Below, in pieces: positions 34,461 to 63,466 of a stretch of DNA of 64,000 nucleotides (position 1 is its first letter; each line of letters opens with the position of its first letter). Source of the stretch: Bifidobacterium sp. 7101 (GTDB lineage: Bacteria; Actinomycetota; Actinomycetes; Actinomycetales; Bifidobacteriaceae); the NCBI RefSeq assembly GCF_000499285.1, contig NZ_AWUN01000001.1, forward strand, positions 1-64,000, in the 5' to 3' direction. The notes under the pieces are model-generated. The model worked only from the letters and a program-made list of their open reading frames with translations, searched no databases and was not told where the DNA came from. Position numbers and translations under genes: made by a program.

Positions 34461-36350
34461 TTACTGGTCGGCCGGGCGCGATGCCCCTGCCTGCACGGAT
34501 CCAGATGAAATGGTCATTGGGACCACGATCGAGGACCCGTTGAAGAACTCGATGGTCACTTCTACTGTTCCATCAGCCACGCTGGGGTCGGAGAAGAAGT
34601 TTCCGTTCAGGGTGAAGGTGTCGGCCCTCCTGTCACTGGAGAAGGCGGAACCGGCCTGCAGATAGGACCACCAGGAGGAGTTGGGGCCGATGGCTCGCCC
34701 GTATTCCTTGGCGGAGACCCTGCGGACGGCGTTTCCCTCATAGTTCATGGGGATTGTGATTCCGCTGCGCTGGCCAACGGCGGGCGAGGAGGTGGCCTGC
34801 CCGGCACGAACCAGATACTCATGCCAGTCGGCGCCGGCGGTGAATGTGAGGGTCAGATCGGCCAGCTGACCGTAGGCCGGTGCCTTAGGGGCAGACAGAA
34901 TCCGGTTCAGGTAGGAGGCGGTCAGGGTCACCGTCTGGGAGGAGGCGTCGTAGGTGTAGTCGGAACCGGCCTTGAGACCCTTGATCGAGTTGAAGGAGTT
35001 CCCGTTCAGGGCCAGGGGAATGGTCAGTCCAGATTGAGTCTTGGAAGCAAGATAAATAGTGTCGGGGCCTGTGGCATAGGAGGAAGTGGCACTCATGGCC
35101 GCCTGGAGTTCGGAGCCGATCCGAGCGCTCTTCCACCCATATGGGGCCTGACGTGAAATCATGGAGCCGTTGTCCCAGAGCATGAGCCCAATTCCGCCCT
35201 GGCGGGCCATCTGGTTCATGTAGTCGTAGTACTTGAGTTCCTCGCCCTCCTGGAGCACGTCGCTGCCTGTGTCATAGCCCAGGAGGCCGTATTCGCCAAT
35301 CACTGTCCCGATGCCTTGACTGGTCAGGTTGTCCTGGATGGTCTTGAAGGTGGCGGCGGCCGAGGTTCTGGCCGTGGTCGGGCGGCCCTGGTTGTCGGTG
35401 CCGATCCTCTCGTCGAAGCCGGTGATCCCAAGGTTGGCGCTGTAGAGCCACTCACTGTAGTAGTGAACCGTGGCAGCGAGGTACGGGTCGTTGAAGCCCT
35501 TGATCAGGGAGGCCAGATGCCTGGTGTACTCGTCAGAAGGGGTGGTGGAAGGGGTGGGCATGACGATCATGCGGTGCTCGTTGCCGGGCACGGAGCGGAT
35601 GATGGAGCGTGCTTCCGTGTTCAATCTGTCCAACTTCTCCTGGGCGGACGGGTAGTCCCAGGTGTTGAACTGGGGTTCGTTGATGGTTTCGAAGGCCACC
35701 TTGTCCGACTCGTCGGCGAAGGTTCTGGCCAGCCGTTTCCAGAAATCCGAGAACATGACCTCCTCCTTGGCCCCGACCTGACCATTCCACTGCTTCAGCC
35801 AGATCCAGGAGTCATGATGGATGTTGACCAGAACGTGCATCCCCAGTCCGGTCGCCTGGTCGACCACCTGGCGATACCGATTGAGCCAATCCTGATTGAT
35901 CAGGTAACGGTAGCCGTCCTTGTTGGTCGAGCCCAGATCCTGGTATCGCCGGTAGACGGTCATTGGAATCCGGATGCTGGTGTAGCCCTTGTCCTTGACG
36001 GCCTTGAGCAGGTCGGGGGTCACCTTGGGATTCCCCCAGGCCTGTTCGCCCTGATCGGGGGAGGACCAGTTGGTGTCCACCGCATCGAAGGAATTGCCCA
36101 GGTTCCATCCCCTGCCCATCTCCTTGGCGAACTGGAGAGAGGGTGTCTGCCCGGTCTTCGGCAGGATGGTAGTCGAGGCAGCGGCAGTCTCTGGGTCGGT
36201 TCCAGATCGGATTTGGGTGTCTGCGCTCGCCGCAGGTGCCAGGACCAGCCCCATGGCGGTCAGGGCTGTCGTGGCCGCGGTCAGGGCCGGACCCCAACCG
36301 TTCGTTCTCGTCTTGCCTGTCTTCGTGATAAATAATCTGAATCGCTTCAT
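34461..36350 (-). CDS. Secreted GH5 endo-beta-glucanase / xyloglucanase with CBM_X2 and CBM46-like modules
   Basis: The protein is 629 aa. A signal peptide is clear (basic start, hydrophobic TALTAMGLVLAPAASA). The GH5 domain covers about residues 60-400 with GRGWNLGNSFDA (GH5 subfamily 4 style), acid/base E225 (TINEPQ) and nucleophile E353 (VIGEYG). A CBM_X2/Ig-like module follows (PLALNGNSFNSIKGL, GSDYTYDASSQTVTLTASYL), then a CBM46-like module. This is the architecture of the Bacillus BhCel5B/BlCel5B enzymes, which act on xyloglucan and mixed-linkage glucan. No sortase motif or membrane anchor is seen, so it is probably released. It could generate oligosaccharides for the operon starting at 38770 (inference). 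Confidence 0.85.
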   Translation of the reverse strand: MKRFRLFITKTGKTRTNGWGPALTAATTALTAMGLVLAPAASADTQIRSGTDPETAAASTTILPKTGQTPSLQFAKEMGRGWNLGNSFDAVDTNWSSPDQGEQAWGNPKVTPDLLKAVKDKGYTSIRIPMTVYRRYQDLGSTNKDGYRYLINQDWLNRYRQVVDQATGLGMHVLVNIHHDSWIWLKQWNGQVGAKEEVMFSDFWKRLARTFADESDKVAFETINEPQFNTWDYPSAQEKLDRLNTEARSIIRSVPGNEHRMIVMPTPSTTPSDEYTRHLASLIKGFNDPYLAATVHYYSEWLYSANLGITGFDERIGTDNQGRPTTARTSAAATFKTIQDNLTSQGIGTVIGEYGLLGYDTGSDVLQEGEELKYYDYMNQMARQGGIGLMLWDNGSMISRQAPYGWKSARIGSELQAAMSATSSYATGPDTIYLASKTQSGLTIPLALNGNSFNSIKGLKAGSDYTYDASSQTVTLTASYLNRILSAPKAPAYGQLADLTLTFTAGADWHEYLVRAGQATSSPAVGQRSGITIPMNYEGNAVRRVSAKEYGRAIGPNSSWWSYLQAGSAFSSDRRADTFTLNGNFFSDPSVADGTVEVTIEFFNGSSIVVPMTISSGSVQAGASRPADQ

Positions 36351-36510
36351 TGTCAATTCAATCCCCCGTTCCGTAACTGGGCAGGCTCTGCCTGCAGGGC
36401 AGGGCCTGCCAGATGTTTCCTGTGTGCTGCGCTGAGTATGCAGCTGCACGGCACAACCGTACTGTGCCGTCTCAGTGAGCCCGCCAACCGTGGCAGAATC
36501 TCATACAGAT

Positions 36511-36516
36511 ATTATA
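36511..36516 (-). promoter_or_regulatory. -10 element of the secreted GH5 gene
   Basis: On the minus strand this reads TATAAT, a perfect -10 hexamer, about 160 bases upstream of the GH5 start. No good -35 is seen. The surrounding 36351-36595 region is otherwise empty of genes. Confidence 0.4.
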
Positions 36517-36595
36517 GTTCAATCATTAGAATAAATAGCGGAGGCTGAACCAGCTGACGGGCCAGGCATGCATGCCCGGAATCACTAGCGAAAAG

Positions 36596-36668
36596 TGGAG
36601 CTGAGGGTAGTCGAAACCCCGACCTCTTCGATGCGAACGAAGCGCTCTACCAACTGAGCTACAGCCCC
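36596..36668 (-). tRNA. tRNA-Ala (anticodon CGC)
   Basis: The 73-base cloverleaf reads from 36668 downwards: acceptor arm GGGGCTG paired with CAGCTCC (one G-U pair), D-arm GCTCAGTTGGTAGAGC, anticodon stem CTTCG/CGAAG around the loop TTCGCAT with anticodon CGC, then a TTCGACT T-loop and discriminator A. CGC reads the alanine codon GCG. CCA is not encoded. It is flanked by the GH5 and DedA genes. Confidence 0.95.
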
Positions 36669-36808
36669 ATTCGTTGCCCGACCGTAGCCGAACAACAGAC
36701 TGTACTGTATCGCACGGTGGGCACAAACGCAATCCGGACGGTCTGTGCCATGGCTCCGTGTTACAAACCAATGGCGCGGTTTCCGCGGCTGCCGGATGGT
36801 TGTCATGT

Positions 36809-37534: not shown

Positions 37535-37720
37535 TTGCCAAAGACCGTCCTGTTACGTCGAAACACGAACCGTTCCAAACTGTAGCAAGCCTCGTCCACA
37601 GCAGGTCGGTCTTCATCAGACCCTTGCGAGGAAGACACAACCGTTGTACATCTCGGGTCTTGCCCTATGCCTATTTCGTGTGAAAGGGGGTACCAGCCAT
37701 ACGCCTACTTCCATACGACC

Positions 37721-38371
37721 TCACAGGGAACCGTTCTTGTAGGTGGTCTTGGTGTCTCCCTTGGTTCCGCGTTCGAAACGATCGAAGGCCCGCAGATAGA
37801 TCAGTGACTTGGCGTATGCCAGCCAGGAGAAGCCGAAGATGATGACCAGGACCCGCAGGAAGGGCACGGAGTAGATGAGGAAGGCGAAGGCCACGTCGAT
37901 GGCCAGAAGGCAGATGGCGTAGAGGGGAATCCCCATGGGAACCCCCACGGAAAGCTTGAAGAAACCCCAGACCGTATTGGTATAGCGGGATTGCAAGGGG
38001 TAGAAGAACTCGTATGAGAGAACCAGTAGGACGGTCCCGATAATCAGGATGATGAGGGCCGGGTAGGTCGCCGCCCCCTTCATGTTCAACCAAAAGGCCA
38101 GTGAGTAAATGATGATGGCCCCCAGCGCCACGTGGATGATGAAAGCGACGATGGATTGTTTGAACTCCCGGATGAAACGTTGCAGGTACTGCCTGCAGAG
38201 GGGGATGTCCTCATGGTCGTCATAGGCGAAGACCGTACCGTAGAGGGCGCTGCGGGCGGGGCCTATCGTGACCAGGGGTATGCAGGTGACGACGAAGAGC
38301 AGGTTCAAGGCTGTGAATCTGAGCAGGGTGTTCACGAACTGCCAGAAGGGGCTTTCGAGGTTGAAGTGCAT
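37721..38371 (-). CDS. YesL-like (DUF624) membrane protein
   Basis: The protein is 216 aa with about five membrane helices (LNLLFVVTCIPLVTIGPARSAL, SIVAFIIHVALGAIIIYSLAF, YPALIILIIGTVLLVLSYEF and two more). LVTIGPARSALYGTVFAYDD is the DUF624 signature. Genes of this type accompany Lpl/Yes-type oligosaccharide importers, and here the gene is divergent from lplB/lplC-like permeases at 38770. Its role in transport is not established. An inverted repeat (38396-38418) lies 25 bases before its start. Confidence 0.82.
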   Translation of the reverse strand: MHFNLESPFWQFVNTLLRFTALNLLFVVTCIPLVTIGPARSALYGTVFAYDDHEDIPLCRQYLQRFIREFKQSIVAFIIHVALGAIIIYSLAFWLNMKGAATYPALIILIIGTVLLVLSYEFFYPLQSRYTNTVWGFFKLSVGVPMGIPLYAICLLAIDVAFAFLIYSVPFLRVLVIIFGFSWLAYAKSLIYLRAFDRFERGTKGDTKTTYKNGSL

Positions 38372-38395
38372 GATCCGCCTTTCCTCTTCGACTCT

Positions 38396-38617: not shown

Positions 38618-38646
38618 TTGACAGCTTAGTAAAATCGGTGTACTAA
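38618..38646 (+). promoter_or_regulatory. Promoter of the lplBC operon with TTAGTA/TACTAA inverted repeat
   Basis: TTGACA (38618-38623) and TACTAA (38641-38646) are 17 bases apart. TTAGTA (38626-38631) and TACTAA (38641-38646) form an inverted repeat with a 9-base gap, overlapping the spacer and -10, so it may be an operator. Confidence 0.65.
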
Positions 38647-38649
38647 TCT

Positions 38650-38671: not shown

Positions 38672-38769
38672 CGACTACGATCTACGCGGCGCCGAGATGT
38701 AGCGGATACATACGGCGCATGGCTGGCAACGCAAGGGAGCGGGCTTATGGGAAAAGACAGGAGGGCAGG

Positions 38770-39741
38770 ATGTCAACTGGCGACATTCCGTTGAAGGTCA
38801 CCCGGCGGGGTAAGACTAAACGCCAAGGGGGCATAAGCGGTAGGAAGAAACATAGCATCAACCTCTTCCTCTTGACCATCCCCTTTCTGATACTGGTCAT
38901 CCTATTCAGTTACTATCCCCTGCTCGGCTGGGTATATGCCTTCTATGACTACCAGCCCCCAATCCCACTGTCGGAGAGCCAGTTCGTCGGCTTCCAGTGG
39001 TTCAAGATGATTGTCCAGAACCCTGCCCAGCTGCATACGGTCGGTCAGGTCCTGGTCAATACTTTCGTGATGAGCGGCCTGGGCATTCTGACCTCGTTCT
39101 TCCCGCTGTTCTTCGCCATCGGCCTCAATGAGATTCGCAATAAACACTTCAAGAACGTCATCCAGACACTGACCACCCTGCCCAACTTCATCAGCTGGGT
39201 CCTGGTCTACGCCGTGGCATTCGCCATGTTCTCCTCCACCGGCATGGTCAACCAGCTCCTGCAGAACATCCACCTGATTTCACAGCCCATCCACTTCCTG
39301 GATTCCGACAGCGGGACCTACTTCAAGATGCTCCTGTGGAGCCTGTGGAAGGGTCTGGGCTGGGGGTCCATCCTCTACCTGGCTGGCATATCCGGCATCG
39401 ACCCCGAACTCTACGAAGCCGCCCAGGTGGATGGTGCTAACCGCTTCCAGCAGATCATCCACGTCACGGTTCCGCAACTCATGCCCACCTACCTGGTCAT
39501 GCTGATGCTGAGCGTCTCCAACTTCCTCAACAACGGGATGGATCAGTACTTCGTCTTCCAGAACGCCTTCAACCTCAAGCACATTCAGGTGCTTGACCTC
39601 TACGTCTACAACGTGGGCATGGGTCAGAACAGCCTCTCTCTGGCAACGGCCATATCCATGCTGAAATCCTTGGTCAGCGTGGTCCTCCTGTTCCTGGTCA
39701 ATTGGGCCTCCAAGCGGACCCGTGGCGAGTCAATTATCTGA
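38770..39741 (+). CDS. LplB-type oligosaccharide ABC permease
   Basis: The protein is 323 aa with six membrane segments. The LplB/YtcP hallmark is FLLTIPFLILVILFSYYPLLGWVYAFYDYQP followed by FVGFQWFKMIV. The EAA loop is LYEAAQVDGANRFQQIIHVTVPQLMPT. These CUT1 permeases import large plant-derived oligosaccharides. AGGAGGGCAGG before ATG 38770 sets the start. It heads a gene series that runs without strong terminators to about 44.7 kb. No ATPase is encoded nearby. Confidence 0.9.
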   Translation: MSTGDIPLKVTRRGKTKRQGGISGRKKHSINLFLLTIPFLILVILFSYYPLLGWVYAFYDYQPPIPLSESQFVGFQWFKMIVQNPAQLHTVGQVLVNTFVMSGLGILTSFFPLFFAIGLNEIRNKHFKNVIQTLTTLPNFISWVLVYAVAFAMFSSTGMVNQLLQNIHLISQPIHFLDSDSGTYFKMLLWSLWKGLGWGSILYLAGISGIDPELYEAAQVDGANRFQQIIHVTVPQLMPTYLVMLMLSVSNFLNNGMDQYFVFQNAFNLKHIQVLDLYVYNVGMGQNSLSLATAISMLKSLVSVVLLFLVNWASKRTRGESII

Positions 39742-39760
39742 GCGTGAGGGGAAAGCAATC

Positions 39761-40702
39761 ATGAGCGACAGCATGGCAATCGAATCGAAGGGCGTTTCTC
39801 CCCTCCTGCAGCGGACCAAGGGCGAGAAGGTGTTCAATGTCTTCAACATCGCCTTCTTCATCCTCTTCGCCTTCATCTGCGTCTACCCGTTCTACTATCT
39901 GATCATCAACAGCATCTCCGACAACACCCTGAGTGCCGCCGGCAAGATCACCGTCCTGCCCAAGGGAGTCCACTGGAGCAACTATGTGGAGGTCTTCAAG
40001 CTGGAGGGTCTGGGCACGGCGGCCATGGTCTCCCTGGGACGTACCGTGATCGGCGCCACCCTGACCGTACTGGCCAGTGCCTTCCTGGGCTTCCTCTTCA
40101 CCCAGCAGGGCATGTGGCACCGCAAGTTCTGGTACCGCTTCATCATCGTGACCATGTACTTCAACGCCGGGCTGATCCCCATGTTCATCACGATGAAGAA
40201 CCTGGGCCTGACCAACAACTTCTGGGTGTACATCCTGCCGGCCATCGTGCAGCCCTTCAACATCATCCTGGTGAAGACCTACATCGAGTCCATTCCCTCC
40301 TCCCTCCAGGAGGCGGCCGAAGTGGACGGCGCCGGCACACTGACGGTCTTCTTCAAGATCGTCCTGCCCATGTGCACGCCGATTCTGGCCACGGTGGCCA
40401 TCTTCTCGGCCGTGGGGCAGTGGAACTCCTTCCAGGACACCTTGATCTACATGACTGACTCCAAGCTCTACTCCCTGCAGTACCTGCTCTATCAGTACAT
40501 CAACCAGGCAAGCTCCCTGGCCAGTGCAGTCAAGGCCAGCGCTGGTGGGGCCCTGAACATGGCGGCCCTGGCCACCCAGCAGACCCCGTCGTCGATCAGG
40601 ATGACCGTCTCGGTCATCGTGGTCCTGCCCATCCTCTTCATCTACCCGCTCTTCCAGCGCTACTTCGTCAAGGGCATGATGCTCGGCGCCGTCAAGGGCT
40701 GA
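39761..40702 (+). CDS. LplC-type oligosaccharide ABC permease
   Basis: The protein is 313 aa. FNIAFFILFAFICVYPFYYLIINSISD opens the membrane part. YFNAGLIPMFITMKNLGLTNNFWVYILP is typical of LplC/YtcP. The EAA loop is LQEAAEVDGAGTLTVFFKIVLPMCTP, and the end, YFVKGMMLGAVKG, is the conserved C-terminus. It forms the channel with the LplB-type protein 19 bases upstream. GAGGGGA before ATG 39761 sets the start. Confidence 0.9.
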   Translation: MSDSMAIESKGVSPLLQRTKGEKVFNVFNIAFFILFAFICVYPFYYLIINSISDNTLSAAGKITVLPKGVHWSNYVEVFKLEGLGTAAMVSLGRTVIGATLTVLASAFLGFLFTQQGMWHRKFWYRFIIVTMYFNAGLIPMFITMKNLGLTNNFWVYILPAIVQPFNIILVKTYIESIPSSLQEAAEVDGAGTLTVFFKIVLPMCTPILATVAIFSAVGQWNSFQDTLIYMTDSKLYSLQYLLYQYINQASSLASAVKASAGGALNMAALATQQTPSSIRMTVSVIVVLPILFIYPLFQRYFVKGMMLGAVKG

Positions 40703-41064: not shown

Positions 41065-42813
41065 ATGCAAGCCAAGAAGCTGACGGCGGTGGCTGCCGCT
41101 GTCATAACCGTGTCCATGGCCTTGGCGGGCTGTGGTGGTGGCGGTAACTCCGCCAACGAAAAGGACGACGGGTCGCTCATGCAGGTGGACGTCTTCGATG
41201 GCCTGGCCAACTATCAGGGAATCCAGAAGGGCTGGTTCGCCAAGATGGTCAAGGACAAGTTCAACCTCAAGCTGAACATAGTGGCCCCCAATGTTGCGGG
41301 CGGGGGCAATACCCTCTTCGATACCCGTTCGGCAGCTGGGAACCTGGGCGACATCGTCATTACCGGCTCAGGCTCCGGGCAGGCGGCCAAGTTGGTCAAG
41401 GCCCATTTAATTGACGACATGACGCCGTACATGAAGAATGCCAAGAACATCAAGAAGTACAAGTCCGCCACCGACGCCTTCAACAAGGTGGCCGGGCAGA
41501 CCAGCGGGGTCTGGGGAGTGCCTGGGTCGGTCACTTCCCTGCCGCCCACGGAGCCCTCCGAGGGGCTGGAGCCCACCTTCGGCCCCTACGTGCGGTGGGA
41601 CATCTACAAGGAGGTAGGCTATCCCAGGATCGCCGATATGGATGACCTGGTCAATGTCCTCAAGCAGATGCAGGACAAGGCCCGGGCAGATACCGGCGAC
41701 AAGAACATCTACGCCATGTCCCTCTTCAAGGACTGGGATGGCAACATGATGAACAACGCCAAGCAGCCCACCTGCTACTACGGTTATGACGAGATGGGCT
41801 TCGTCCTGGCCAAGGCCGACGGCTCCGACTACCAGTCGGTCACCCAAAAGGGCGGAATGTATGAGAAGGCCCTCCAGTTCTTCAACAAGGCATCGCAGGC
41901 CGGCCTGGTCGACCCCGAGTCGACCACCCAGAACTACGACACCATGTATGCCAAGTACCAGCAGGGCAAGATTCTCTTCTCCTTCTGGCCCTGGCTGGGG
42001 CAGGCAGCCTACAACACCACGGATAACAAGGCCCAGGGCAAGGGCTTCATGATCGCTCCCCTGGAGGATATGAAGATCTTCTCCTACGGCGCCACGCCTG
42101 ACGGGGGCAGCACCTTCATCGCTCTGGGTTCCAAGGCCAAGAACAAGCAACGCCTGGTCAACTTCATCGACTGGCTCTACTCGCCTGAGGGGGTCTACGC
42201 CTCCGGTGCCCAGACCGGCGGGTCCGCTGGTCCCAAGAACCTGAACTGGACGGTCAAGGACGGCAAGCCCGAGCTGACCGATTTCGGCGAGAAGGTCCTC
42301 TTCGGCAACGGTGCCAACGTACCGGCCGATTGGGGCGGCGGCACATACAAGGACGGGGTCTCGGCCTTGAACTACCCGACTGTGATCGTCCAGGACAAGG
42401 ATCCCTCCACAGGCTATCCCTACAACGCCAGCATGTGGCCCTCGCAGCTGGCCAAGAACACGGACCCGCTGAGCACCGACTGGTCCGCCCACATGGGCGG
42501 GGCCAAGACCACCATGGAATATCTGAAGAAGAACGACAAGATCATGGTGGCCCCCGGTTCCAGCTACGTGACTCCTGATGAGTCCTCCCAGATCAAGACC
42601 CTCCGCGGCCAGGTGAAGACCGAGATCGTCAACGCCTCCTGGAAGGCCTCCTTCGCCAAGGATGACAACGAGTTCAATGCCCTCCTCGATGAGATGCGCT
42701 CCAAGGTTGACGGGATGGGCTACAAGCAGGTTCTCGATGTGGACATGAAGGACGCCAAGGATCAGAACACGGCCCGGGTGGACATCAAGAAGCAGTTCGA
42801 AGACAAGAAGTGA
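41065..42813 (+). CDS. LplA-type substrate-binding lipoprotein, paralogue 1
   Basis: The protein is 582 aa. The signal peptide ends in LAGC (lipobox, near residue 22) followed by GGGGNSANEKDDGS. It belongs to the large (~550-600 aa) solute-binding proteins that work with LplB/LplC permeases. Characteristic stretches are NYQGIQKGWFAKMVKDKFNLKLNIV, VRWDIYKEVGYP and KGFMIAPLEDMKIFSYG. It is closely similar along its length to the next gene and to the protein at 55350. The ligand is inferred to be decorated beta-glucan (xyloglucan) oligosaccharide from the downstream enzymes. GGAAAGGGGAAAC precedes the ATG. Confidence 0.88.
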   Translation: MQAKKLTAVAAAVITVSMALAGCGGGGNSANEKDDGSLMQVDVFDGLANYQGIQKGWFAKMVKDKFNLKLNIVAPNVAGGGNTLFDTRSAAGNLGDIVITGSGSGQAAKLVKAHLIDDMTPYMKNAKNIKKYKSATDAFNKVAGQTSGVWGVPGSVTSLPPTEPSEGLEPTFGPYVRWDIYKEVGYPRIADMDDLVNVLKQMQDKARADTGDKNIYAMSLFKDWDGNMMNNAKQPTCYYGYDEMGFVLAKADGSDYQSVTQKGGMYEKALQFFNKASQAGLVDPESTTQNYDTMYAKYQQGKILFSFWPWLGQAAYNTTDNKAQGKGFMIAPLEDMKIFSYGATPDGGSTFIALGSKAKNKQRLVNFIDWLYSPEGVYASGAQTGGSAGPKNLNWTVKDGKPELTDFGEKVLFGNGANVPADWGGGTYKDGVSALNYPTVIVQDKDPSTGYPYNASMWPSQLAKNTDPLSTDWSAHMGGAKTTMEYLKKNDKIMVAPGSSYVTPDESSQIKTLRGQVKTEIVNASWKASFAKDDNEFNALLDEMRSKVDGMGYKQVLDVDMKDAKDQNTARVDIKKQFEDKK

Positions 42814-42972
42814 ACAGGAAGATGAGCGTCCGGCCCCCATCGGGATTCCCGGGGGATTCGGACCTCACATGAAGACTTGACCACCTTGGTCGGCCTGTGT
42901 CGTACGACCGGCCCGAGCCGACCAAGGGAGTCTGAAAACCAGACTATGGCAGAGAAAGGTAACAAGGAAACC

Positions 42973-44870: not shown

Positions 44871-44891
44871 CCGGTTACCGGTTACCGGTTA
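44871..44891 (+). repeat. Three tandem copies of CCGGTTA
   Basis: CCGGTTA is repeated three times without interruption, 80 bases before the SGNH hydrolase start. Overlapping GGTTACC palindromes arise from it, so it could be a regulator binding site or a slippage-prone spot. Confidence 0.6.
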
Positions 44892-44971
44892 TGAATGTGG
44901 CCTTTGTTCCAATCAGGGGCCGTGCCGCGAATGATGGAAAACAGAGAAGGAAAACGAGGTGCGAGAGCTGC

Positions 44972-54206: not shown

Positions 54207-55253
54207 ATGGCTGGCATCAAGGAGGTGGCCGCACGAGTCGGCGTCTCCATCAGCACCGTCTCCTATGCCATAAGTGGGAAACGGTCGGTTAGCGCCTCTA
54301 CCAGGGCCAGGGTCATGCAGGCCGCCCGCGAACTGGGCTATGCCCCCCGGTCGCATGGACGCCTGGCCCGGGGTGGAGAGACCAGGATCCTTGCCCTGAG
54401 CTCACCCATGGACGAGCGGACGGTCTACGGGGATTGGTCGCCTTACTTCTTCGGGGTGGCCCGGCGTTCCCATCTGCGCGGGTATGACATCCTGGCCCTT
54501 ATGGGTGAGGATGAGGACCTGGCTGGTCTGGCGGATTCAGGCCAAGTGGACGGAATCCTCCTGATGGATGTGACGGTGGACGACCCACGTACCGCACTGG
54601 CCGCTTACTCACGGGTTCCCGTGGTGTCCCTCGGTTGTCCGGACAGCCTGGACGGGGCCTACGCGGTGGATCTGGACTTCGAGCAGATGGGCCGTCTGGC
54701 CGTCCACCGTATGGTCGCGGCCGGCCACACCCACCTCCTCTTCCTAGGGGCCGACCCCGATGCCTACGAGGAGGGCGTTAATTTCCTGGTTCGGACCAGG
54801 AAGGCGGTCAGGTCATCGGCCGCCGGTGCCCATGTAGCTGTGACGGAGGAGTACCTCGACGGTGAGGGGGCTCGTCCCATGAAAAGCCTTGTATGTCGCG
54901 CTCTGGCCGTTGATCCGGAGATCTCGGCCGTTCTGGGACAGGTGGACACTATGGGAATGTTCAACCTGACAAGAGCCCTGGCTGCTGTCGGCAGACCAGT
55001 TGGATCGGCCATGTCGGTCATCCAGTTGGGCTCCTTCGGCAAAGGGGCCGTGTTGGACCCGCCTCTGGACGAAATCCCCCTGCGCCCTTACCTGGCGTGC
55101 GGCCGTGCCGTCGATGTCCTGGTCGAGATGGTGGAGGGAAGACGCCCCAGGCCAGGCAGGGGAATCAAGGAGTTGATCCCGGTCACATACCTGGACCGGG
55201 GTTCGGTCAGGTCTCCGGTCAGGTCCGGGAACTGTCGAAATCCTTCGAAATGA
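54207..55253 (+). CDS. LacI-family regulator of the hemicellulose cluster
   Basis: The protein is 348 aa. The HTH is AGIKEVAARVGVSISTVSYAI (residues 2-22). The sensor domain is less conserved than usual in the DxxA region (AVLGQVDTMGMFNLTRAL), with a gap where many family members carry the DNDxxA motif. The gene comes 36 bases after the beta-galactosidase gene, so it is probably part of the same transcript. It likely responds to a sugar from the pathway. No strong ribosome-binding site precedes the ATG. Confidence 0.88.
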   Translation: MAGIKEVAARVGVSISTVSYAISGKRSVSASTRARVMQAARELGYAPRSHGRLARGGETRILALSSPMDERTVYGDWSPYFFGVARRSHLRGYDILALMGEDEDLAGLADSGQVDGILLMDVTVDDPRTALAAYSRVPVVSLGCPDSLDGAYAVDLDFEQMGRLAVHRMVAAGHTHLLFLGADPDAYEEGVNFLVRTRKAVRSSAAGAHVAVTEEYLDGEGARPMKSLVCRALAVDPEISAVLGQVDTMGMFNLTRALAAVGRPVGSAMSVIQLGSFGKGAVLDPPLDEIPLRPYLACGRAVDVLVEMVEGRRPRPGRGIKELIPVTYLDRGSVRSPVRSGNCRNPSK

Positions 55254-55349
55254 TTCGTTCCCACGCTTCAGTCCCTTTTATGCTAATCAGTGCGTTCTTG
55301 CATGGCGATGAGGCCATGGCGTATGGCTCGTGATGGAAGCGAGGTAGAT

Positions 55350-57128
55350 ATGCACAGTCAAAAGACGAGGAAGTCGAAGATGTGGACCAGGCCGATGGCC
55401 CTTCAGGCCACCCTGGCAATCTCGATGACCGTGGGGGCCTGTGGATCGGGTGGCGAATCGGAGGCCGAGGGAGTTGACGACGGAGCATCGATGACGGTGG
55501 AGGTCTTCGACCAACTGGCCAACTATCAGGGCAAGCAAAAGGGTTGGTTCGCCAAACTGGTAAAGGACAAGTTCAACATCACCCTCAATATCGTGGCCCC
55601 CAACGTGGCAGGCGGTGGCAACACGCTTTTCGACACCCGTTCTGCTGCTGGCAATTTGGGTGACCTGGTGGTCATAGGCTCCAACGGCGGTCAGGCCAAG
55701 AAGGTGGTCAAGGCGGGCCTGGTGGCCGATCTGACCCCTTATATGAAAGATGCCAAACACCTTAAGGCCTATCAGGGGGCCATGGATCAGCTCAGGGCCG
55801 ATGTCGGCCGTAAGGACGGTACCTGGGGAATCCCTATCTCCGTCTCGGCCCTCTCGCCTACGGAGCCCAGTGAGGGGGTGGAGCCCACCTTCGGCCCCTT
55901 CGTCAGATGGGACTACTACAAGGAGGTCGGCTACCCCAAGGTCGCCACCCTGGAGGATCTTCTGCCTGTCCTTGAGAAGATGCAGGAGAGAGCCCGTCAG
56001 GAGACCGGCCGCAAGGACATCTACGCCCTGAGTCTCTTCAAGGACTGGGACGATCAAGCCATGCAAAACGGCTTCCAGTTGCCAGCCTTCTACGGTTATG
56101 CCGAGGGAACCGGATATGTGATGAGCAATGCCGACGGGTCGGATGCCCAGTCCCTAATCGCCCCGGACGGGATTTATGTCAGGGCCCTGAAATTCTTCAA
56201 CAAGGCGCAGAGGATGGGCCTGGTCGATCCCGATTCCACCACGCAGAACTACGACACCATGTTCGCCAAGTACCAGCAGGGCAAGATTCTCTTCTCCTTC
56301 TGGCCCTGGCTGGGGCAGGCAGCCTACAACACCGAGACCCACAGGCAAGAGGGGAAGGGGTTCATGATGCTCTCCATAGACGACATGAAGATCGCCTCCA
56401 AGGGGGCGCAGCCCAACGGGACCTCTACTTTCATCGGGGTTGGGGCCAAGGCGAAGAACAAGGCCCGCCTGGTTAGATTCATCGACTGGCTTTATTCACC
56501 GGATGGCATACAGGCCTCCGGCTCCCAGACCAACGGAGCCGCCGGGCTCAAGGGGCTGACCTGGAAGGTAGAGGGAGGCCGACCGGTCCTGACGGATTTC
56601 GGTGTCAAAGCTCTGTCCGGTGAGAAGGTAAACGTCCCCGAGGAATACGGGGGAGGGGGCTACACGGATGGGGCCTCCCAACTCAATGTCAACACGGTCC
56701 TGAACAAGGGGTTGGATCCCGCCACTAAAGCCCCCTACAACTATCAGATGTGGGATTCGGAACTGGACAAGCGGACCACGGCCCTCGACAGGGACTGGCA
56801 GGCGCACATGGGCGGTGCCCGCACCACGATGGAGTATTTGGAGAAAGCGAAGAAGCTGGCTGTGATACCCGGGGCCAGCTATTCCACCCCCAAGGAGTCC
56901 TCCGTTATCTCGACCATCCGGGGACAGGTCAAGACCGCAGTGGTTAACGGCTGCTGGCAGGCCGTCTTCGCCAAGGATGACGAAGGGTTCGACTCGGTCT
57001 GGTCCTCCATGGTGAAGAACGTGGACGGGCTGGGCTTCCAGAAGGTCTATCAAGTGGACATGGATAACACCCATAGTCTCTTCTCGGCGCGCAAGGCGAT
57101 CGAGAAGCAGTATGCCGATCGGAAGTAA
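55350..57128 (+). CDS. LplA-type substrate-binding lipoprotein, paralogue 3
   Basis: The protein is 592 aa. The lipobox is VGAC after MALQATLAISMTVGAC. It shares the blocks NYQGKQKGWFAKLVKDKFN, NVAGGGNTLFDTRSAAGNLGDL and YQQGKILFSFWPWLGQAAYNTE with the proteins at 41065 and 42973, but is more divergent. No permease gene is beside it; it may use the LplB/LplC pair at 38770-40702 (inference). GAGGTAGAT before ATG 55350 sets the start. It lies 96 bases after the LacI gene. Confidence 0.88.
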   Translation: MHSQKTRKSKMWTRPMALQATLAISMTVGACGSGGESEAEGVDDGASMTVEVFDQLANYQGKQKGWFAKLVKDKFNITLNIVAPNVAGGGNTLFDTRSAAGNLGDLVVIGSNGGQAKKVVKAGLVADLTPYMKDAKHLKAYQGAMDQLRADVGRKDGTWGIPISVSALSPTEPSEGVEPTFGPFVRWDYYKEVGYPKVATLEDLLPVLEKMQERARQETGRKDIYALSLFKDWDDQAMQNGFQLPAFYGYAEGTGYVMSNADGSDAQSLIAPDGIYVRALKFFNKAQRMGLVDPDSTTQNYDTMFAKYQQGKILFSFWPWLGQAAYNTETHRQEGKGFMMLSIDDMKIASKGAQPNGTSTFIGVGAKAKNKARLVRFIDWLYSPDGIQASGSQTNGAAGLKGLTWKVEGGRPVLTDFGVKALSGEKVNVPEEYGGGGYTDGASQLNVNTVLNKGLDPATKAPYNYQMWDSELDKRTTALDRDWQAHMGGARTTMEYLEKAKKLAVIPGASYSTPKESSVISTIRGQVKTAVVNGCWQAVFAKDDEGFDSVWSSMVKNVDGLGFQKVYQVDMDNTHSLFSARKAIEKQYADRK

Positions 57129-57148
57129 GCCCGGCTCATCCGATGCGG

Positions 57149-57191
57149 CCCCAGAATTCCGGTTCTTGATTGCAGGATCGGAATCCTGGGG
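57149..57191. terminator. Bidirectional stem-loop between convergent genes
   Basis: CCCCAGAATTCCG (57149-57161) pairs with 57179-57191 at 12 of 13 positions. It lies 20 bases after the binding-protein stop and before the end of the minus-strand esterase. No clear T-run. Confidence 0.55.
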
Positions 57192-57238
57192 AATGTGGAT
57201 GGCAGGGACTTGTCACCTTCTTGGGGTGTGAGCAAAAG

Positions 57239-58154: not shown

Positions 58155-60656
58155 TCAGAAGGTCACGGTCACGTTCACCGGATTCTCGCTTGTCTGGGGT
58201 GGTACCATCCCGCTACTCAGTTCGTGGCCGTCCAGGCTGACCGAACGCCTTCCAGTCCGCTTCATGGAAATTCGATAGGTGACCCCCCTCCAGGTCCTGC
58301 CGACGGTCAGTTCGTTGAATTCGGCGGGCAGGTGGGGTTCGATAACCAGTCCGTCCAAGGTGGGCCTGACCCCCAGCAGATACTGGGAGACATCCACGAA
58401 GGACCAGGCGGCCGTGCCTGTCAGCCATGAGTTCTTTCCCTCGCCGGGGGTGGGGGACTCAGGACCGGCCACCATCTGGCAGTAGACGTAGGGCTCCACC
58501 TTGCGGATGTCGGACTTCTTCTCCAGGTAGGCGGGGCAGGTGCGTCTGTAGACCGCGAAGGCCTCTTCGTCATCGCCGACCATGGCGTTGGCTATGGAGA
58601 TCCAGGGGTTGACGTGGCAGAAGACGCCACCATTCTCCTTGTACCCCCTGGGGTAGGAAGAGATCTCGCCTAGTTCGATTCGGTAGGTGGAATAGGCGGG
58701 GGCCAGAATGGCCGTACCCCAGGAGGAGGTCAGCCTCTCCTTGACCGAGGTCAGGGCCTGTCGGGCCTTGCCGTCATCGAGACCGATACCGGCCATTACA
58801 CACATCCCCTGGGGTTCGATGTAGATCTGCCCTTCGGTGTCAGTGTGGGAGCCGACGGGACGGGAGTAAGCGTCGTAGGCCCTGAGGAACCACTGGCCGT
58901 CCCAGCCGGCCTCCTCCACGGTATGGGTCATCTTCTCGATGGCCTGGCGGACCGAGGCGGTCTCCTGGGCCACAGCATCCCTGTCCATCCCGCAATCCGT
59001 CCCGTAATGGTCCAGGATGTCGGCGTAGTGGCCGGCATAGAGGACGAACATGCCTCCGATCAGGACCGACTCAGCCACACCTGTGTCATTGTTTTCGACA
59101 GTCTGGAAACTCTCTCCTGGTGTATCGGAGAAGCAGTTGAGGTCAAGGCAGTCGTTCCAGTCGGCCCGTCCAATCAGGGGGAGGTCATGCGGGCCCATGT
59201 GGTTCATTGTGAACCCGATCGACCGGCGCAGGTGCTCCAGGAGGGGTTTCTCGGTCCCTGCCACATTGTTGAAGGGGACGGGCTCCTTCAGGATGGAGGA
59301 ATCCCCGGTCTCGGCCAGGTAGGCGTAGGTGCCGGCCACCAGCCAGAGGGGGTCGTCGTTGAAGCCGCCGCCAATGTCGGCGTTCCCCCTTTTGGTCAGA
59401 GGCTGGTACTGGTGCCAGGCCGACCCATCCTCCAGCTGGGTTGAGGCGATGTCGATGATGCGCTGACGGGCGCGGTCGGGGATCAGGTGGACAAAGCCCA
59501 GGAGATCCTGGTTGGAGTCGCGGAAGCCCATCCCCCTCCCTGTGCCTGATTCGAAATAGGAGGCCGAACGCGAAAGGTTGAAGGTGACCATGCACTGGTA
59601 CTGGTGCCATATGTTGACCATCCGATCCAGGCGGGGGTCGCCGCTGTCCAGGGTGAACCGGCCCAGGAGATCGGCCCAGTAGGCCTTGAGGTCGGCGAAG
59701 GCCTGGTCGACCTGGTCGTCCCTTCTGAATCGGTCGAAGAGGGCGTGTGCGGGCTTCTTGTTGATGATTCCCACCTTGGCAGGGTCATCGGGGTCCTCCC
59801 ACTTGTCCTCCTTGGGCAGCTGGACATAGCCCAGGATGAATACCAGGCTCTCCTCCTGGCCGGGGTCCAGGGATAGCCTGACCCTGTTGGCGGCTATAGG
59901 GAACCATCCGTGTGCCACGGAGTTGCGGGCTCTGCCCTCGGTGATGGCTTCGGGGGTATCCCAGCCGTTGAACTTACCCAGGAACTCGTCCCGGCTGGTG
60001 TCGAACCCGCAGGTGGGCTGGTTGACCCCGAAGAAGGCGTAATGGTTTCGGCGTTCCTTGTACTCGGTCTTGTGGTAGAGAAGGGTGGCTTCCGATCCCT
60101 GCTCGACCTCCACTTCGCCCGTAGACAGGTTGCGCTGGAAGTTGCTGGAGTCGTCCACGGCGTTCCACAGGCACCACTCAACACAGCCGGTCACATCCAG
60201 AAGGATGGGGGAGCCGGTGGTGTTCCTGATTTTCAAACGGTTGATTTCGGCATCGGCATCCACGGGGACGAAGGCGGTCATGACTGTATCGATGCCCTTA
60301 TATGAGGATTCGAAAATGGTATATCCGATCCCCTGACGGCAGCTGTACCGGTCCAGGGGAGTCCTGGAGGGCAGGAAGGTGGGCGACCAGGTGGCCAGGG
60401 GGGCGGACTCTGGGTTGTCCCGATCCATAAGGCTCAGGTAGTAGCTGCGGCTGCCGTTGTCGGCAGGTACCCCGTTATAGCGGTAGCGGGTTATCCTCTG
60501 GAGCTTGGCATCTTTGTAGAAGGAATAGCCACCGCCTGTATTGGAGATGAGGGAGAAGAAGTCCTGGTTGCCCAGATAGTTGATCCAGGGCAGCGGGGTG
60601 GCGGGTGTGTCGATGACATACTCTCTGGCTGCGTCGTCAAAATGACCGTATTGCAT
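58155..60656 (-). CDS. Cellobiose phosphorylase (GH94)
   Basis: The protein is 833 aa, the usual length. The signature GMGFRDSNQDLLGFVHLIP and the catalytic GRADWNDCLDLNCFSDTPGESFQ (Asp in the DWND segment, residues 499-502) are typical of cellobiose phosphorylases. QYGHFDDAAREYVIDTPATPLPWINYLGNQDFFSLIS is the standard N-terminus. It converts cellobiose and phosphate to glucose 1-phosphate and glucose, saving ATP. The start at 60656 follows AGGGAGAAC on the coding strand; the frame to 60755 is not needed. Confidence 0.95.
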   Translation of the reverse strand: MQYGHFDDAAREYVIDTPATPLPWINYLGNQDFFSLISNTGGGYSFYKDAKLQRITRYRYNGVPADNGSRSYYLSLMDRDNPESAPLATWSPTFLPSRTPLDRYSCRQGIGYTIFESSYKGIDTVMTAFVPVDADAEINRLKIRNTTGSPILLDVTGCVEWCLWNAVDDSSNFQRNLSTGEVEVEQGSEATLLYHKTEYKERRNHYAFFGVNQPTCGFDTSRDEFLGKFNGWDTPEAITEGRARNSVAHGWFPIAANRVRLSLDPGQEESLVFILGYVQLPKEDKWEDPDDPAKVGIINKKPAHALFDRFRRDDQVDQAFADLKAYWADLLGRFTLDSGDPRLDRMVNIWHQYQCMVTFNLSRSASYFESGTGRGMGFRDSNQDLLGFVHLIPDRARQRIIDIASTQLEDGSAWHQYQPLTKRGNADIGGGFNDDPLWLVAGTYAYLAETGDSSILKEPVPFNNVAGTEKPLLEHLRRSIGFTMNHMGPHDLPLIGRADWNDCLDLNCFSDTPGESFQTVENNDTGVAESVLIGGMFVLYAGHYADILDHYGTDCGMDRDAVAQETASVRQAIEKMTHTVEEAGWDGQWFLRAYDAYSRPVGSHTDTEGQIYIEPQGMCVMAGIGLDDGKARQALTSVKERLTSSWGTAILAPAYSTYRIELGEISSYPRGYKENGGVFCHVNPWISIANAMVGDDEEAFAVYRRTCPAYLEKKSDIRKVEPYVYCQMVAGPESPTPGEGKNSWLTGTAAWSFVDVSQYLLGVRPTLDGLVIEPHLPAEFNELTVGRTWRGVTYRISMKRTGRRSVSLDGHELSSGMVPPQTSENPVNVTVTF

Positions 60657-61070
60657 GTTCTCCCTATCCTCAATGCAACCTTGGCCCAGCCCCGTCGGGT
60701 TGGGGCCGGTTGGGCAGGCCGTAGGCGGCCCTTCCGGACTGTCCCGAGGCGTCACAACCCCTTGAAAGCAGCAGTGCCTGATCGGAATAGCTGCCGGAAT
60801 CGTGCCCCATTTCGGGAAAGACTGCTAAGGCTGGCGACCCGCGTTTGTATTATCGTTTGACTAAGATGATAGCATTAATTAATAAACCTATAGATAAGCG
60901 TGTGCGGATTCCCTATAATGGTTGAACTCATGTGGCTTCCAATAGGCCGGAACCCCAAAGGTTGGGCAGATTGGAGCCGTCTGCAGTCATGATGGGGACC
61001 CGCAGGGGCGGGCGGCACTGTAAAGAGACAGGATCCCACCACCCGCCAAGTGCCTGAGTAAGGGGGGTTC
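60657..61070. other. Divergent control region between cellobiose phosphorylase and TetR genes
   Basis: This 414-base interval has no recognisable gene. It contains a plus-strand promoter (TTGACT at 60857-60862, 17 bases, TAATAA at 60880-60885), an AT-rich block around 60865-60905 and a shared element at 60878-60899. The minus-strand promoter for the phosphorylase is not clear to me. Confidence 0.5.
60878..60899 (+). promoter_or_regulatory. Shared promoter element, copy 2
   Basis: A 22-base element ending in TATAGATAAGC overlaps the -10 at 60880. It matches copy 1 at 38650-38671 at 18 of 22 positions. Confidence 0.5.
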
Positions 61071-61973
61071 ATGACTGGCGTAGAGGATTGGAACCAGTAC
61101 CGGGCAGGAAAAAGTGTCACCGGATCCGGTCCGACGGTCGGGTCCACCTTCTCGGAGAACCCTCGTGCCCGTCAGGTCTTTACTGGCAAGGGCTTCCCCC
61201 GGCGCAAGCGCATGACCGCCGATGAGCGCAAGGAACAGATTGTCAAGGCGGCCGTCAAGGTGATTGCTGCCAAGGGCTTTTGGGGGATGTCCCTGCAGGA
61301 CGTGGCCGATCAGGTGGGCATCACCGAGGCCGCCCTCTATCATTACATCGACTCCAAGAACGACCTGTTCAGGATGGTCATGGAGCAGGCCTATGACTCC
61401 CCTGAGGCCGACGAGTTCATCTACACGACCTGCACGGGGACGGATGCGGACGGACACAACCTTCTCTTCTTCCCTCGGTTCTGCGCCAACAACGTCATTT
61501 TCAATGCCCGCAGGCCGGAGATGGTCAAGCTCTTCTCCATCTTGAACGGAGAGGCTCTCAGCCCCTCGCACCCGGCCCACCGCTATTTCATAGGCCGAAA
61601 CCAGAAGTTTTGGCAGACCATCAAGTCACTGAACTGGTGCCTGCCCAGAGGGTACGACCTTGACCGCTTCCACCACATGTGGGTGCTGTGCATGTCGGCC
61701 ATGGATGGCCTGCAATACCGCTGGCTGGCGGACGGGTCAGCCGACCTGGTGGCCGAGTGGCTCGCCTTCTCCGATGAGCTCTTCCCTCAGGAGAAGTGGC
61801 ATGGGTTCATGGACCCCAGTGACATCGACCCGGACTCGGAAGAATGCCTGGCCTCCTACGGCCTTATTACGGGTGGAGGACCGGCGGTGCAGGACCAGCG
61901 GCTACGTCCAGACGACCCCTCCGGTGGGACAGCGGCCACCGAGGACGTCCAACGGCCGGGGGACAGCAAATGA
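61071..61973 (+). CDS. TetR-family transcriptional regulator
   Basis: The protein is 300 aa, long for this family. A ~45-residue N-terminal extension precedes the HTH: TADERKEQIVKAAVKVIAAKGFWGMSLQDVADQVGITEAALYHYIDSKNDLF. The ligand-binding part follows and the tail is variable. AAGGGGGG before ATG 61071 strongly supports the long start. Its stop overlaps a possible ATG of the beta-glucosidase gene by 4 bases, so the two are one operon. It may control the cellobiose/xyloglucan genes around it (inference). Confidence 0.88.
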   Translation: MTGVEDWNQYRAGKSVTGSGPTVGSTFSENPRARQVFTGKGFPRRKRMTADERKEQIVKAAVKVIAAKGFWGMSLQDVADQVGITEAALYHYIDSKNDLFRMVMEQAYDSPEADEFIYTTCTGTDADGHNLLFFPRFCANNVIFNARRPEMVKLFSILNGEALSPSHPAHRYFIGRNQKFWQTIKSLNWCLPRGYDLDRFHHMWVLCMSAMDGLQYRWLADGSADLVAEWLAFSDELFPQEKWHGFMDPSDIDPDSEECLASYGLITGGGPAVQDQRLRPDDPSGGTAATEDVQRPGDSK

Positions 61974-61993
61974 CTGCAGGAGAGAATAGCGCC

Positions 61994-63466
61994 ATGGATA
62001 TGAAAGAAACGAAAGAGAGGATTGGCATGGGCCAAGAGAGCAAGTTCATCTTCCCGTCCGATTTCACTTGGGGAACGGCCACGGCAGCCTTCCAGGTGGA
62101 AGGGGCGGCACATGAGGATGGCAGGACGGATTCCATCTGGGACACATATTGCGCCCGGCCGGGCGTGGTAGTCGACGGGTCCAACGGTGATGTGGCCTGC
62201 GATCAGTATCATCGCTACCCGCAGGACATAGCCCTGATGAAGCAGATGGGTGTCGGTGCCTACCGCATGTCCATATCCTGGTCCCGTATTTTTCCCACGG
62301 CTGGTGGTCCGGTGAACCAGGCCGGGCTGGATCACTACCTGAAGGTCCTTGATATGCTGCGCGACAATGGAATCAGGCCCGTCGTCACCCTGTATCACTG
62401 GGATCTTCCCCAGTACCTACAGGATGAAGGCGGCTGGCCCAGCAGGGACACAGCCCTCCGTTTTGGCGACTACGCCTCCGCTCTGGCGGCCTCCTTCGGC
62501 GACCGGGTGGACACCTGGACCACCTTGAACGAGCCCTGGTGTGCGGCCTATCTGGGCTATGGGAACGGGGCCCATGCCCCAGGGATCAAGGACTACGACC
62601 AGGCCCTGGCCGCCGTCCACCATCTGAGCCTGGCCCATGGCCTGGCCTGTCAAGCCATCAGGGCCCAGGTCGGGCAGGGTGCCCAGCTCTCGGTCACCCT
62701 CAACCTTCAGGTGACCCGGGCGGCTTCTGACAGCCCGGAGGACCTCGCCGCCAAGAAGAGGGCCGATCTCTTCGCCAACGAGGTCTTTCTGGCCCCCATG
62801 CTGGAAGGTGTCTATCCGGAAGGTGTCAGTCAGGCGGCAGGGGAGGATACCGACTGGCGCTTCGTGCAGGACGGTGACCTGGAGACCATTCATCAGCCCC
62901 TTGATGTCCTGGGACTGAACTACTACGCCACCACCTATGTCAAGGCCAGGAAGGCTGATGATGAATCCGCCGATGCGTCGGTCGGTCCCGAGGGCAAGCT
63001 GGTCGATCGTCATGCCAACGCCATGCCGGCCCAGGATGGCGTGGAGGGACTGGCCCCGCAGGGGGAGCTGACAGGGATGGGCTGGAATCAGGAACCTAAG
63101 GGTTTGACTGATGTGCTGGTCGAGCTGGGCCGACGTTTCCCCGACATAGAACTCATGGTGACCGAGAACGGTTCCGCCTGGGATGATCAGGTCAGTCGGG
63201 ATCCGGACGCGCCCAGCGGGAAGATCGTTCACGACCCCAAGCGGGTAGCCTATCTGGAAGAGCATGTCAAGGCCGTGGCCAGGGCCATTCAGGCCGGGGC
63301 TCGGGTTACCGGCTACTTCGCCTGGTCCCTGCTGGACAACTTTGAGTGGGCCCTGGGCTACACCAAGCGCTTTGGGCTGATCAGGGTCGACTATGACACT
63401 CAGGAGCGGATCTGGAAGGATTCGGGAAAGCGCTACTCCCAGATTGTGCAGGCCAATGCCATCTGA
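61994..63466 (+). CDS. GH1 beta-glucosidase
   Basis: The protein is about 490 aa. The signature FPSDFTWGTATAAFQVEGAAHEDGRTDSIWD opens the barrel. The acid/base is E180 (LNEPWCAAYLGYG) and the nucleophile is E391 (MVTENGSAWDD). The C-terminal WSLLDNFEWALGYTKRFGLIRVDY is typical. It is a full-length cytoplasmic enzyme for cello-oligosaccharides or other beta-glucosides. AGGAGA 9 bases before ATG 61994 favours this start; ATG 61970, 62000 and 62027 are alternatives. It follows the TetR gene directly. Confidence 0.92.
   Translation: MDMKETKERIGMGQESKFIFPSDFTWGTATAAFQVEGAAHEDGRTDSIWDTYCARPGVVVDGSNGDVACDQYHRYPQDIALMKQMGVGAYRMSISWSRIFPTAGGPVNQAGLDHYLKVLDMLRDNGIRPVVTLYHWDLPQYLQDEGGWPSRDTALRFGDYASALAASFGDRVDTWTTLNEPWCAAYLGYGNGAHAPGIKDYDQALAAVHHLSLAHGLACQAIRAQVGQGAQLSVTLNLQVTRAASDSPEDLAAKKRADLFANEVFLAPMLEGVYPEGVSQAAGEDTDWRFVQDGDLETIHQPLDVLGLNYYATTYVKARKADDESADASVGPEGKLVDRHANAMPAQDGVEGLAPQGELTGMGWNQEPKGLTDVLVELGRRFPDIELMVTENGSAWDDQVSRDPDAPSGKIVHDPKRVAYLEEHVKAVARAIQAGARVTGYFAWSLLDNFEWALGYTKRFGLIRVDYDTQERIWKDSGKRYSQIVQANAI

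Follow-up and report, generated by a model that had tools for sequence, protein, structure and literature searches.

A likely xyloglucan-oligosaccharide utilisation locus of bee-gut bifidobacteria, compared across nine loci

Introduction

The closest experimentally shown counterpart of the locus described here is the xyloglucan route of Ruminiclostridium cellulolyticum (Ccel_2451-2458), which imports oligosaccharides of up to 9 sugars by means of a solute-binding protein (SBP) with a Kd of 3.65 nM for XXXG, and in which the cytosolic Gal42A (GH42), Xyl31A and Glu3A release galactose, xylose, glucose and cellobiose; a mutant of the SBP does not grow on xyloglucan (PMC4780118). Its cellobiose phosphorylase, CbpA (Ccel_2109), is encoded at a separate locus (PMC8576529). 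The window analysed here is a stretch of 64,000 nucleotides from the genome of Bifidobacterium sp. 7101 (2.12 Mb in 16 contigs), and the gene cluster that it carries at 34461-63466 is likely, judging by its families and gene order, to be a xyloglucan-oligosaccharide utilisation locus of bee-gut bifidobacteria.

Another kind of uptake is found in the xyloglucan locus of Bacteroides ovatus, where a Sus-type outer-membrane system is followed by periplasmic dismantling. The cluster shares with it the set of GH5, GH31 and GH43 arabinofuranosidase, and B. ovatus proteins are among its PDB matches (BoGH31A 5jou, BoGH43A/B and the GH5 xyloglucanase 3zmr), but it differs by its Gram-positive uptake through an ATP-binding cassette (ABC) importer and by its phosphorylase. 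Xyloglucan islands (XG-1) have already been predicted in the marmoset bifidobacteria B. myosotis, B. hapali and MARM_A1; their description, in the part of the text available, mentions no endo-glucanase, phosphorylase or operator, and the hosts are not bees (PMC8406136).

In common with R. cellulolyticum, the locus has an ABC importer (two permeases and an SBP), GH31, GH42, a beta-glucosidase and a presumed end point at the level of cellobiose, open to phosphorolysis; the importer lies in the cluster, and both GH31 and GH42 are leaderless by a crude hydrophobicity test. While the beta-glucosidase of R. cellulolyticum is a GH3, the cluster has a GH1 and no GH3, so that it would work like the R. 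cellulolyticum system without being the same gene set. The comparison with known xyloglucan loci suggested in an earlier note on this DNA holds for the importer, GH31 and GH42, but not for GH3. R. cellulolyticum also relies on cellulosomal enzymes for cutting outside the cell, has a two-component/AraC system in its cluster and keeps its phosphorylase gene elsewhere, whereas the window has a secreted and a leaderless GH5, GH29, GH43, two esterases, a TetR regulator, and a GH94 under the candidate operator of the core. Two features would not be expected from the published systems compared, as far as their texts were available: a GH5 without a leader and the shared operator.

The nearest named relatives found for the leaderless GH5 are the homologues of B. 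choladohabitans and B. mellis (93-95% identity, in a search that may omit the window's own record), which we take to be bee-gut species. Bee isolates of Bifidobacterium form a deep separate branch (PMC8074910), and in the literature on them, with subscription papers thinly covered and texts seen in part, no account of such a locus was found.

Gene content

Protein families were assigned by Pfam (E<=1e-3), and GH31 and GH1 were also scored with NCBIfam models that have cut-offs. All the gene families named in the earlier note are present, as is the importer with several binding proteins (two BPD_transp_1 permeases and three SBPs). Its remark that most genes share one orientation stands as well, since the importer, SBPs, core hydrolases, LacI, TetR and GH1 are on the plus strand, with the secreted GH5, esterase 2, GH94 and a DUF624 gene on the minus strand. 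Its second esterase needs correcting: the plus-strand open reading frame at 57170-57739 has no family match, and the real gene lies on the minus strand.

34461..36449, minus strand: secreted GH5 + CBM_X2 + CBM46 endo-glucanase (Pfam, PDB relatives)
38719..39741, plus strand: ABC importer permease B (permB), PF00528 (BPD_transp_1)
39722..40702, plus strand: ABC importer permease C (permC), PF00528 (BPD_transp_1)
41065..42813, plus strand: solute-binding lipoprotein SBP1, lipobox LAGC
42877..44724, plus strand: solute-binding lipoprotein SBP2, start probably downstream of 42877
44891..45649, plus strand: leaderless SGNH esterase, its closest solved match being 4oap, an acetyl xylan esterase (E 3.3e-61)
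45636..47159, plus strand: GH29 alpha-L-fucosidase or alpha-L-galactosidase without leader (Pfam E 3.2e-94)
47234..49261, plus strand: GH31 alpha-xylosidase of the E. coli YicI type, without YicI's last ~100 residues
49329..50525, plus strand: leaderless GH5 close to GH5_4, true start probably near 49446
50538..52040, plus strand: GH43 with C-terminal sandwich, matching beta-xylosidase 5z5d, then BoGH43B and BoGH43A
52131..54170, plus strand: GH42 beta-galactosidase without leader (3tts, E 4.9e-214)
54207..55253, plus strand: LacI regulator (Pfam)
55290..57128, plus strand: solute-binding protein SBP3, Pfam solute-binding match, lipobox-like
57239-58078, minus strand: second esterase (esterase 2), BD-FAE-like alpha/beta hydrolase without leader, relative 6a6o
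58155..60755, minus strand: GH94 cellobiose phosphorylase, start probably near 60656
61071..61973, plus strand: TetR-family regulator (Pfam)
61844..63466, plus strand: GH1 beta-glucosidase, probably starting at 61970, in overlap with the stop of TetR

Conservation of the locus

The leaderless GH5 is found in 5 of the 27 genomes of the window's genus, as the search tool defines genera, and in 10 of 189 genomes of the family. The secreted GH5 occurs in 11 of the 189, six times together with the leaderless one (P 1.5e-6 if genomes are independent, four of the six being of one genus). The window and 18 stretches from eight other genomes with the leaderless GH5 make up the nine loci compared, onto which 22 query proteins were mapped: five "bee-clade" loci of the window's genus (window, G010, G011, G019 and G022) and four loci of another genus (G051, G067, G069 and G091).

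All nine contain permB, permC, at least one SBP, GH29, GH31, the leaderless GH5, GH42 and TetR, and in all nine the leaderless GH5 lies within the same-strand gene run of the importer. GH43 is present in eight (not in G069), GH94 with esterase 2 in eight (not in the stretch fetched for G091), the SGNH esterase in seven (not in G051 or G069) and the secreted GH5 in six (not in G022, G069 or G091). The permB identity in the four other-genus loci is 73-79%. A GH3 stands between GH29 and GH31 in each of these four and in none of the five bee-clade loci, where GH1 follows TetR every time. In G067 and G091, TetR and the core are some 14-16 kb apart. Such a recurrence of the locus, in nine loci and two genera, is more than chance. 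In addition, a partial locus, L015, has an SBP, SGNH, GH29, GH3, GH31 and the leaderless GH5.

The place of the secreted GH5 varies: it is inside the cluster beside the leaderless GH5 in G067 and G051, next to the cluster in three loci and ~21 kb upstream in G010. The frame of the G051 relative (L099, G051:C4:16240-17763) opens inside the catalytic domain, which may reflect damage to this copy or a fault in the assembly.

Candidate operator and regulators

Two strong sites and one weak site for a candidate 21-bp operator are found in the window.

36514..36534: weak third operator copy, 3 mismatches, upstream of the secreted GH5; suggestive only
38626..38646: candidate operator TTAGTAAAATCGGTGTACTAA, 21 bp, ahead of the importer-hydrolase genes
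60844..60864: candidate operator TTTGTATTATCGTTTGACTAA, between the divergent genes for GH94 and TetR

The pattern TTWGTNNNATCGNTNNACTAA was derived from an inverted repeat that precedes permB and from repeats like it near TetR; since it was shaped on sites later found, only its rarity and its places elsewhere count as evidence. At <=1 mismatch the 2.12-Mb genome has just the sites at 38626 and 60844 (reversed control 0), and at <=2 mismatches 100 shuffles of the window give a mean of 0.0 sites. With one more base fixed and <=3 mismatches allowed, the window has three sites and its 100 shuffles a mean of 0.17, at most 1. Copies are found at all three places (permB, TetR/GH94, secreted GH5) in G010, G011 and G019, the weak copy thus preceding the secreted GH5 in all four bee-clade genomes that have this gene, and the distant G051, whose TetR is 64% identical to that of the window, has a 0-mismatch site between TetR and GH94. 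The permB operator begins two bases after TTGACA, and the nine TetR proteins closely resemble one another around their predicted DNA-reading helix. The shared candidate operator suggests that GH94, esterase 2 and GH1 probably belong to the regulon of the core.

BgrT regulators, of the TetR family, control beta-glucoside genes in bifidobacteria and are also tied to beta-galactosides; the word "xyloglucan" is absent from the text of that study (PMC4746261). The likeness to BgrT is one of context alone, a TetR gene beside beta-glucosidase and phosphorylase genes, and, for the palindromic sites (18-22 nt for BgrT vs 21 here), one of length and symmetry (PMC4746261). Of the nine loci, the window and G067 alone have the LacI-SBP3 pair; because the four remaining bee-clade loci are without it, LacI was set aside as general switch, although LacI may be active as a regulator in the window strain. 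Weaker LacI-family matches are found in G067 (45%) and G091 (32%). Other palindromes upstream of permB, such as the CTTATTTATT... repeat in G067 and G091, are not shared by the bee-clade loci.

Importer and cell location

SBP1 is 74% identical to SBP2 and 59% to SBP3, and all three have lipobox-like N-termini. At the Pfam threshold SBP1 and SBP2 have no match; SBP1 has only a weak partial match to solved structures (E 8.5e-4), and its AlphaFold2 model, from six sequences, is too poor for a fold search (mean predicted local distance difference test score 47.7, predicted template modelling score 0.40). Among the cluster proteins scanned there is no importer ATPase, so that the importer presumably uses one encoded elsewhere.

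Cell location was judged by the 15-residue Kyte-Doolittle maximum over the first 70 residues, a crude test that involves no signal-peptide predictor. In GH29, GH31, the leaderless GH5, GH43, GH42, SGNH, esterase 2, GH94 and GH1 no such stretch exceeds 1.1, whereas the maxima are 2.2-2.3 for SBP1 and SBP2 and ~1.5 for the secreted GH5 and SBP3, vs 0.5 and 1.0 for two cytosolic controls. The absence of a hydrophobic leader from the hydrolases by this test agrees with the order proposed in the earlier note, import before dismantling.

The start of the secreted GH5 is probably near 36350, where a signal-type N-terminus, MKRFRL..., follows an internal Met; no LPXTG motif was found in its sequence. 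Its PDB relatives are 5xrc, 5e09 and 4v2x (BhCel5B), with E 8.2e-81 to 2.3e-76, and its module order, GH5-CBM_X2-CBM46, is that of GH5_4 enzymes of the BhCel5B/BlCel5B type (query 106-651 aligns with 4v2x 60-579). BlCel5B is active on beta-glucan, lichenan, xyloglucan and carboxymethylcellulose (CMC), and BhCel5B without its CBM46 is active on xyloglucan, as cited there from others (PMC4817029).

Enzymes of the cluster

GH31 scores 1149 bits on the alpha-xylosidase equivalog PRK10658 (cut-off 606) vs 246 bits on two alpha-glucosidase models (cut-offs 800 and 553), and it matches YicI 1we5 over residues 1-670 (E 6.3e-244). The motif FKTDFGER is found in 10/10 bifidobacterial copies and HWGGDC in 9/10, the string not being found in G051. 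YicI-type GH31 proteins of the genus fall into two length classes, with open frames of 677-711 and 805-817 aa, spread over 18/27 genomes and both present in G003 and G010. This count holds at E<=1e-100, so that an alpha-xylosidase alone is common in the genus.

The three top solved relatives of GH29 have nearly equal scores (422, 422 and 420 bits; E 3e-125 to 1e-124; next relative E 5e-59); two of them, 7ljj and 7lnp, bear the name exo-alpha-L-galactosidase, and the third, 7snk, is called alpha-L-fucosidase. We take 7ljj to be the exo-alpha-L-galactosidase BpGH29. BpGH29 falls into one similarity cluster with RiGH29, an enzyme with a preference for alpha-1,2 links; fucosidases of this cluster and of another one free fucose from xyloglucan (PMC11189522).

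The leaderless GH5 has 6xrk as its best solved relative, then 3zmr and other GH5_4-type enzymes, including the xyloglucanase 2jep; the frame upstream of its probable start holds a stop in G011. GH43 matches BoGH43B (E 1.2e-70) and BoGH43A (E 6.3e-70). GH94 is a full-length match to the cellobiose phosphorylases 2cqs and 3rrs (E 0) and has in the alignment the motif ADWNDCL, which presumably holds the catalytic Asp. The score of GH1 on TIGR03356 is 558 bits (cut-off 478.5). A xylose isomerase is present in the genome, as are four GH3 matches outside the locus.

Neighbouring genes

37721..38371, minus strand: DUF624 membrane protein, divergent from the importer
36595-36668: tRNA-Ala (CGC), between the secreted GH5 and the importer

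A VTT/DedA gene also lies between the secreted GH5 and the importer. In G022, which has no secreted GH5, the distance from GH1 to permB is only ~1.7 kb, and judging by this genome it is as if the GH5/tRNA segment had been gained or lost. On the other side, window 22877-34377 is a separate adjoining sugar locus, which encodes an SBP_bac_5 protein, two Opp-type permeases, a double ABC ATPase, an alpha/beta hydrolase, a GH1 and a SOGP-type phosphorylase of 1238 aa, and which probably serves beta-glucoside (perhaps beta-1,2) phosphorolysis. Ahead of its importer, G010 carries a second locus (L103 10315-20000, L104 1-9417; G010:C1 232-251 kb), with IclR, MFS, alpha-L-rhamnosidase, GH1, permeases, two SBPs, a short GH31 (77% identical) and a GH3 with permuted domain order.

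Proposed route and rival explanations

The catalytic, transport and regulatory steps of the route are read from the families, gene order, operator sites and leader test described above. The secreted GH5 would cut xyloglucan, and probably other beta-glucans too, outside the cell; SBP1-3 would capture decorated oligosaccharides and permeases B and C would carry them in. In the cytosol, the two esterases would take off acetyl groups, GH29 would remove an alpha-1,2-L-fucosyl (or L-galactosyl) cap, GH42 beta-1,2-galactose and GH43 arabinofuranose where present, GH31 and a beta-glucosidase (GH1 here, GH3 in the other genus) would take turns, GH31 removing the alpha-xylose at the non-reducing end, and the leaderless GH5 would cut the backbone. 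GH94 would then phosphorolyse leftover cellobiose to glucose-1-phosphate and glucose, a last step already put forward in the earlier note and in keeping with the full-length match and the shared candidate operator. One 21-bp operator would probably place three sets of genes under TetR, namely the importer-hydrolase genes, GH94 with esterase 2, and TetR-GH1, and perhaps the secreted GH5 as well, the whole being a real, conserved and probably single-regulon locus. The keeping of the leaderless GH5 in the importer's same-strand run in nine loci leads us to the tentative proposal, offered with reserve, that xyloglucan is imported in pieces longer than one repeat (e.g., two XXXG units) and the last cuts of its backbone are made in the cytosol, one TetR switch governing uptake, cutting and phosphorolysis alike.

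Several observations weigh against these proposals. Outside Bifidobacterium, 60 of the 75 listed loci with a relative of the leaderless GH5 have no other gene of the set (E<=1e-10), 30 of the 75 being shorter than 15 kb, and 14 share one to three of the genes, mostly GH94 or permeases; hence the leaderless GH5 alone is no marker of the system, the combination of genes is. The one listed locus that shares more than three, L079 from a metagenome-assembled genome of Bacillota, has permB/C, an SBP, GH29 (56% identical to that of the window), GH43 and an esterase, along with an AraC-type regulator and an adjoining DUF624 gene; a protein with an L-fucose isomerase C-domain is encoded at L079 438-2075, beside this related GH29/importer cluster. 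The secreted GH5 belongs to a broad beta-glucanase type, the trimodular GH5_4 enzymes, which also cut beta-glucan, lichenan and CMC (PMC4817029), and xyloglucan-specific cutting by this enzyme is not supported. Nor is a certain fucosidase role of GH29, whose near-equal top relatives carry both names, and the best solved relative of GH43 is a beta-xylosidase. A strong operator site is lacking in 3/9 loci: G067 and G091 have only a 3-mismatch site before permB, and G069 has none near the locus genes and one distant 3-mismatch site. Moreover, G022 has the operator at the TetR place only, and G051 none before permB. A 2-mismatch operator-like palindrome in G091 stands upstream of a LacI-like gene (L113, G091:C2:207765) and could be a site for LacI. 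At the permB operator the promoter scan gives no promoter, and the one predicted for TetR-GH1 (60891-60919) is downstream of the operator rather than under it. None of the five bee-clade loci has the GH3 found in the other genus, and GH1 as its stand-in is a guess. Two markers of L-fucose catabolism, the sole steps of the fucose route searched for, were not found in the genome, PF02952 (L-fucose isomerase C-domain) having no match and PF13378 (MR_MLE_C) one match below the cut-off; released fucose may therefore leave the cell, and to call the pathway complete is too strong. Lastly, an R. cellulolyticum mutant in CbpA still grows on xyloglucan nearly as well, with a doubling time 1.22-fold longer and 20% less biomass (PMC8576529), so that GH94 need not be essential.

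That the cluster consists instead of separate neighbouring pathways for several hemicelluloses, namely a beta-glucan/cellodextrin unit (secreted GH5, GH94, esterase, TetR and GH1) and a glycan-trimming unit (importer, GH29, GH31, GH43 and GH42), would fit the distance of GH94/esterase 2 from the nearest core gene (~18 kb in G067, ~5 kb in G069), the relative of the secreted GH5 that is most active on beta-glucan (PMC4817029) and the fact that in other bifidobacteria TetR regulators of the BgrT type are linked with beta-glucosides and beta-galactosides (PMC4746261). This is unlikely, however, as the two strong operator sites of the genome join both units, the leaderless GH5, and in G067 and G051 also the secreted one, lies inside the importer-hydrolase run, and a TetR gene is in the fetched stretch of 9/9 loci. 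Still less credence is given to another fucosylated or L-galactosylated, acetylated plant glycan as the substrate, with GH31 acting on a different alpha-linkage. It could draw on the two exo-alpha-L-galactosidases in the top solved group of GH29 and on the residue after the Cys of FHFDC in GH31, which is Arg in 10/10 bifidobacterial copies and Phe in YicI, a position that presumably matters for specificity. Yet the GH31 scores speak for an alpha-xylosidase, two GH5 of the beta-1,4-glucanase type accompany GH31, and the pairing in L079 of a related GH29 with an L-fucose isomerase C-domain protein favours fucose as the GH29 sugar.

A further explanation, compatible with a xyloglucan-oligosaccharide locus, is scavenging, in which most of the xyloglucan pieces that the cell imports come from other gut bacteria, a secreted GH5 being optional. 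Its absence from three loci is in line with this, above all in G022, which has no GH5 match besides the leaderless one, so that this species would rely on the xyloglucan pieces of others or on another enzyme family. As a general account it is nevertheless rather doubtful, considering that G069 and G091 have other GH5 matches elsewhere, that the secreted GH5 is kept in 6/9 loci, inside the cluster, next to it or upstream, and that the weak operator copy precedes it in four bee-clade genomes. Xyloglucan as the common substrate, as the earlier note had it, is backed by the keeping together of GH31, GH5, GH42, GH43, GH29 and the importer, and a module of GH31, GH42 and importer is shown in R. cellulolyticum (PMC4780118).

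Meaning for bee-gut bifidobacteria

The metabolism of much of the pollen-coat polysaccharide is credited to gut bacteria rather than to the bee itself (PMC10198554), and an assigned sugar, importer and regulator would make part of this use of pollen polysaccharides testable gene by gene. The locus suggests that a few Bifidobacterium species possess a fuller counterpart of the clostridial intracellular xyloglucan route, and the split into genomes with and without the secreted cutter predicts cross-feeding. If the import of long pieces is true, bee bifidobacteria would be "import large, cut inside" users of fucosylated xyloglucan of the pollen type.

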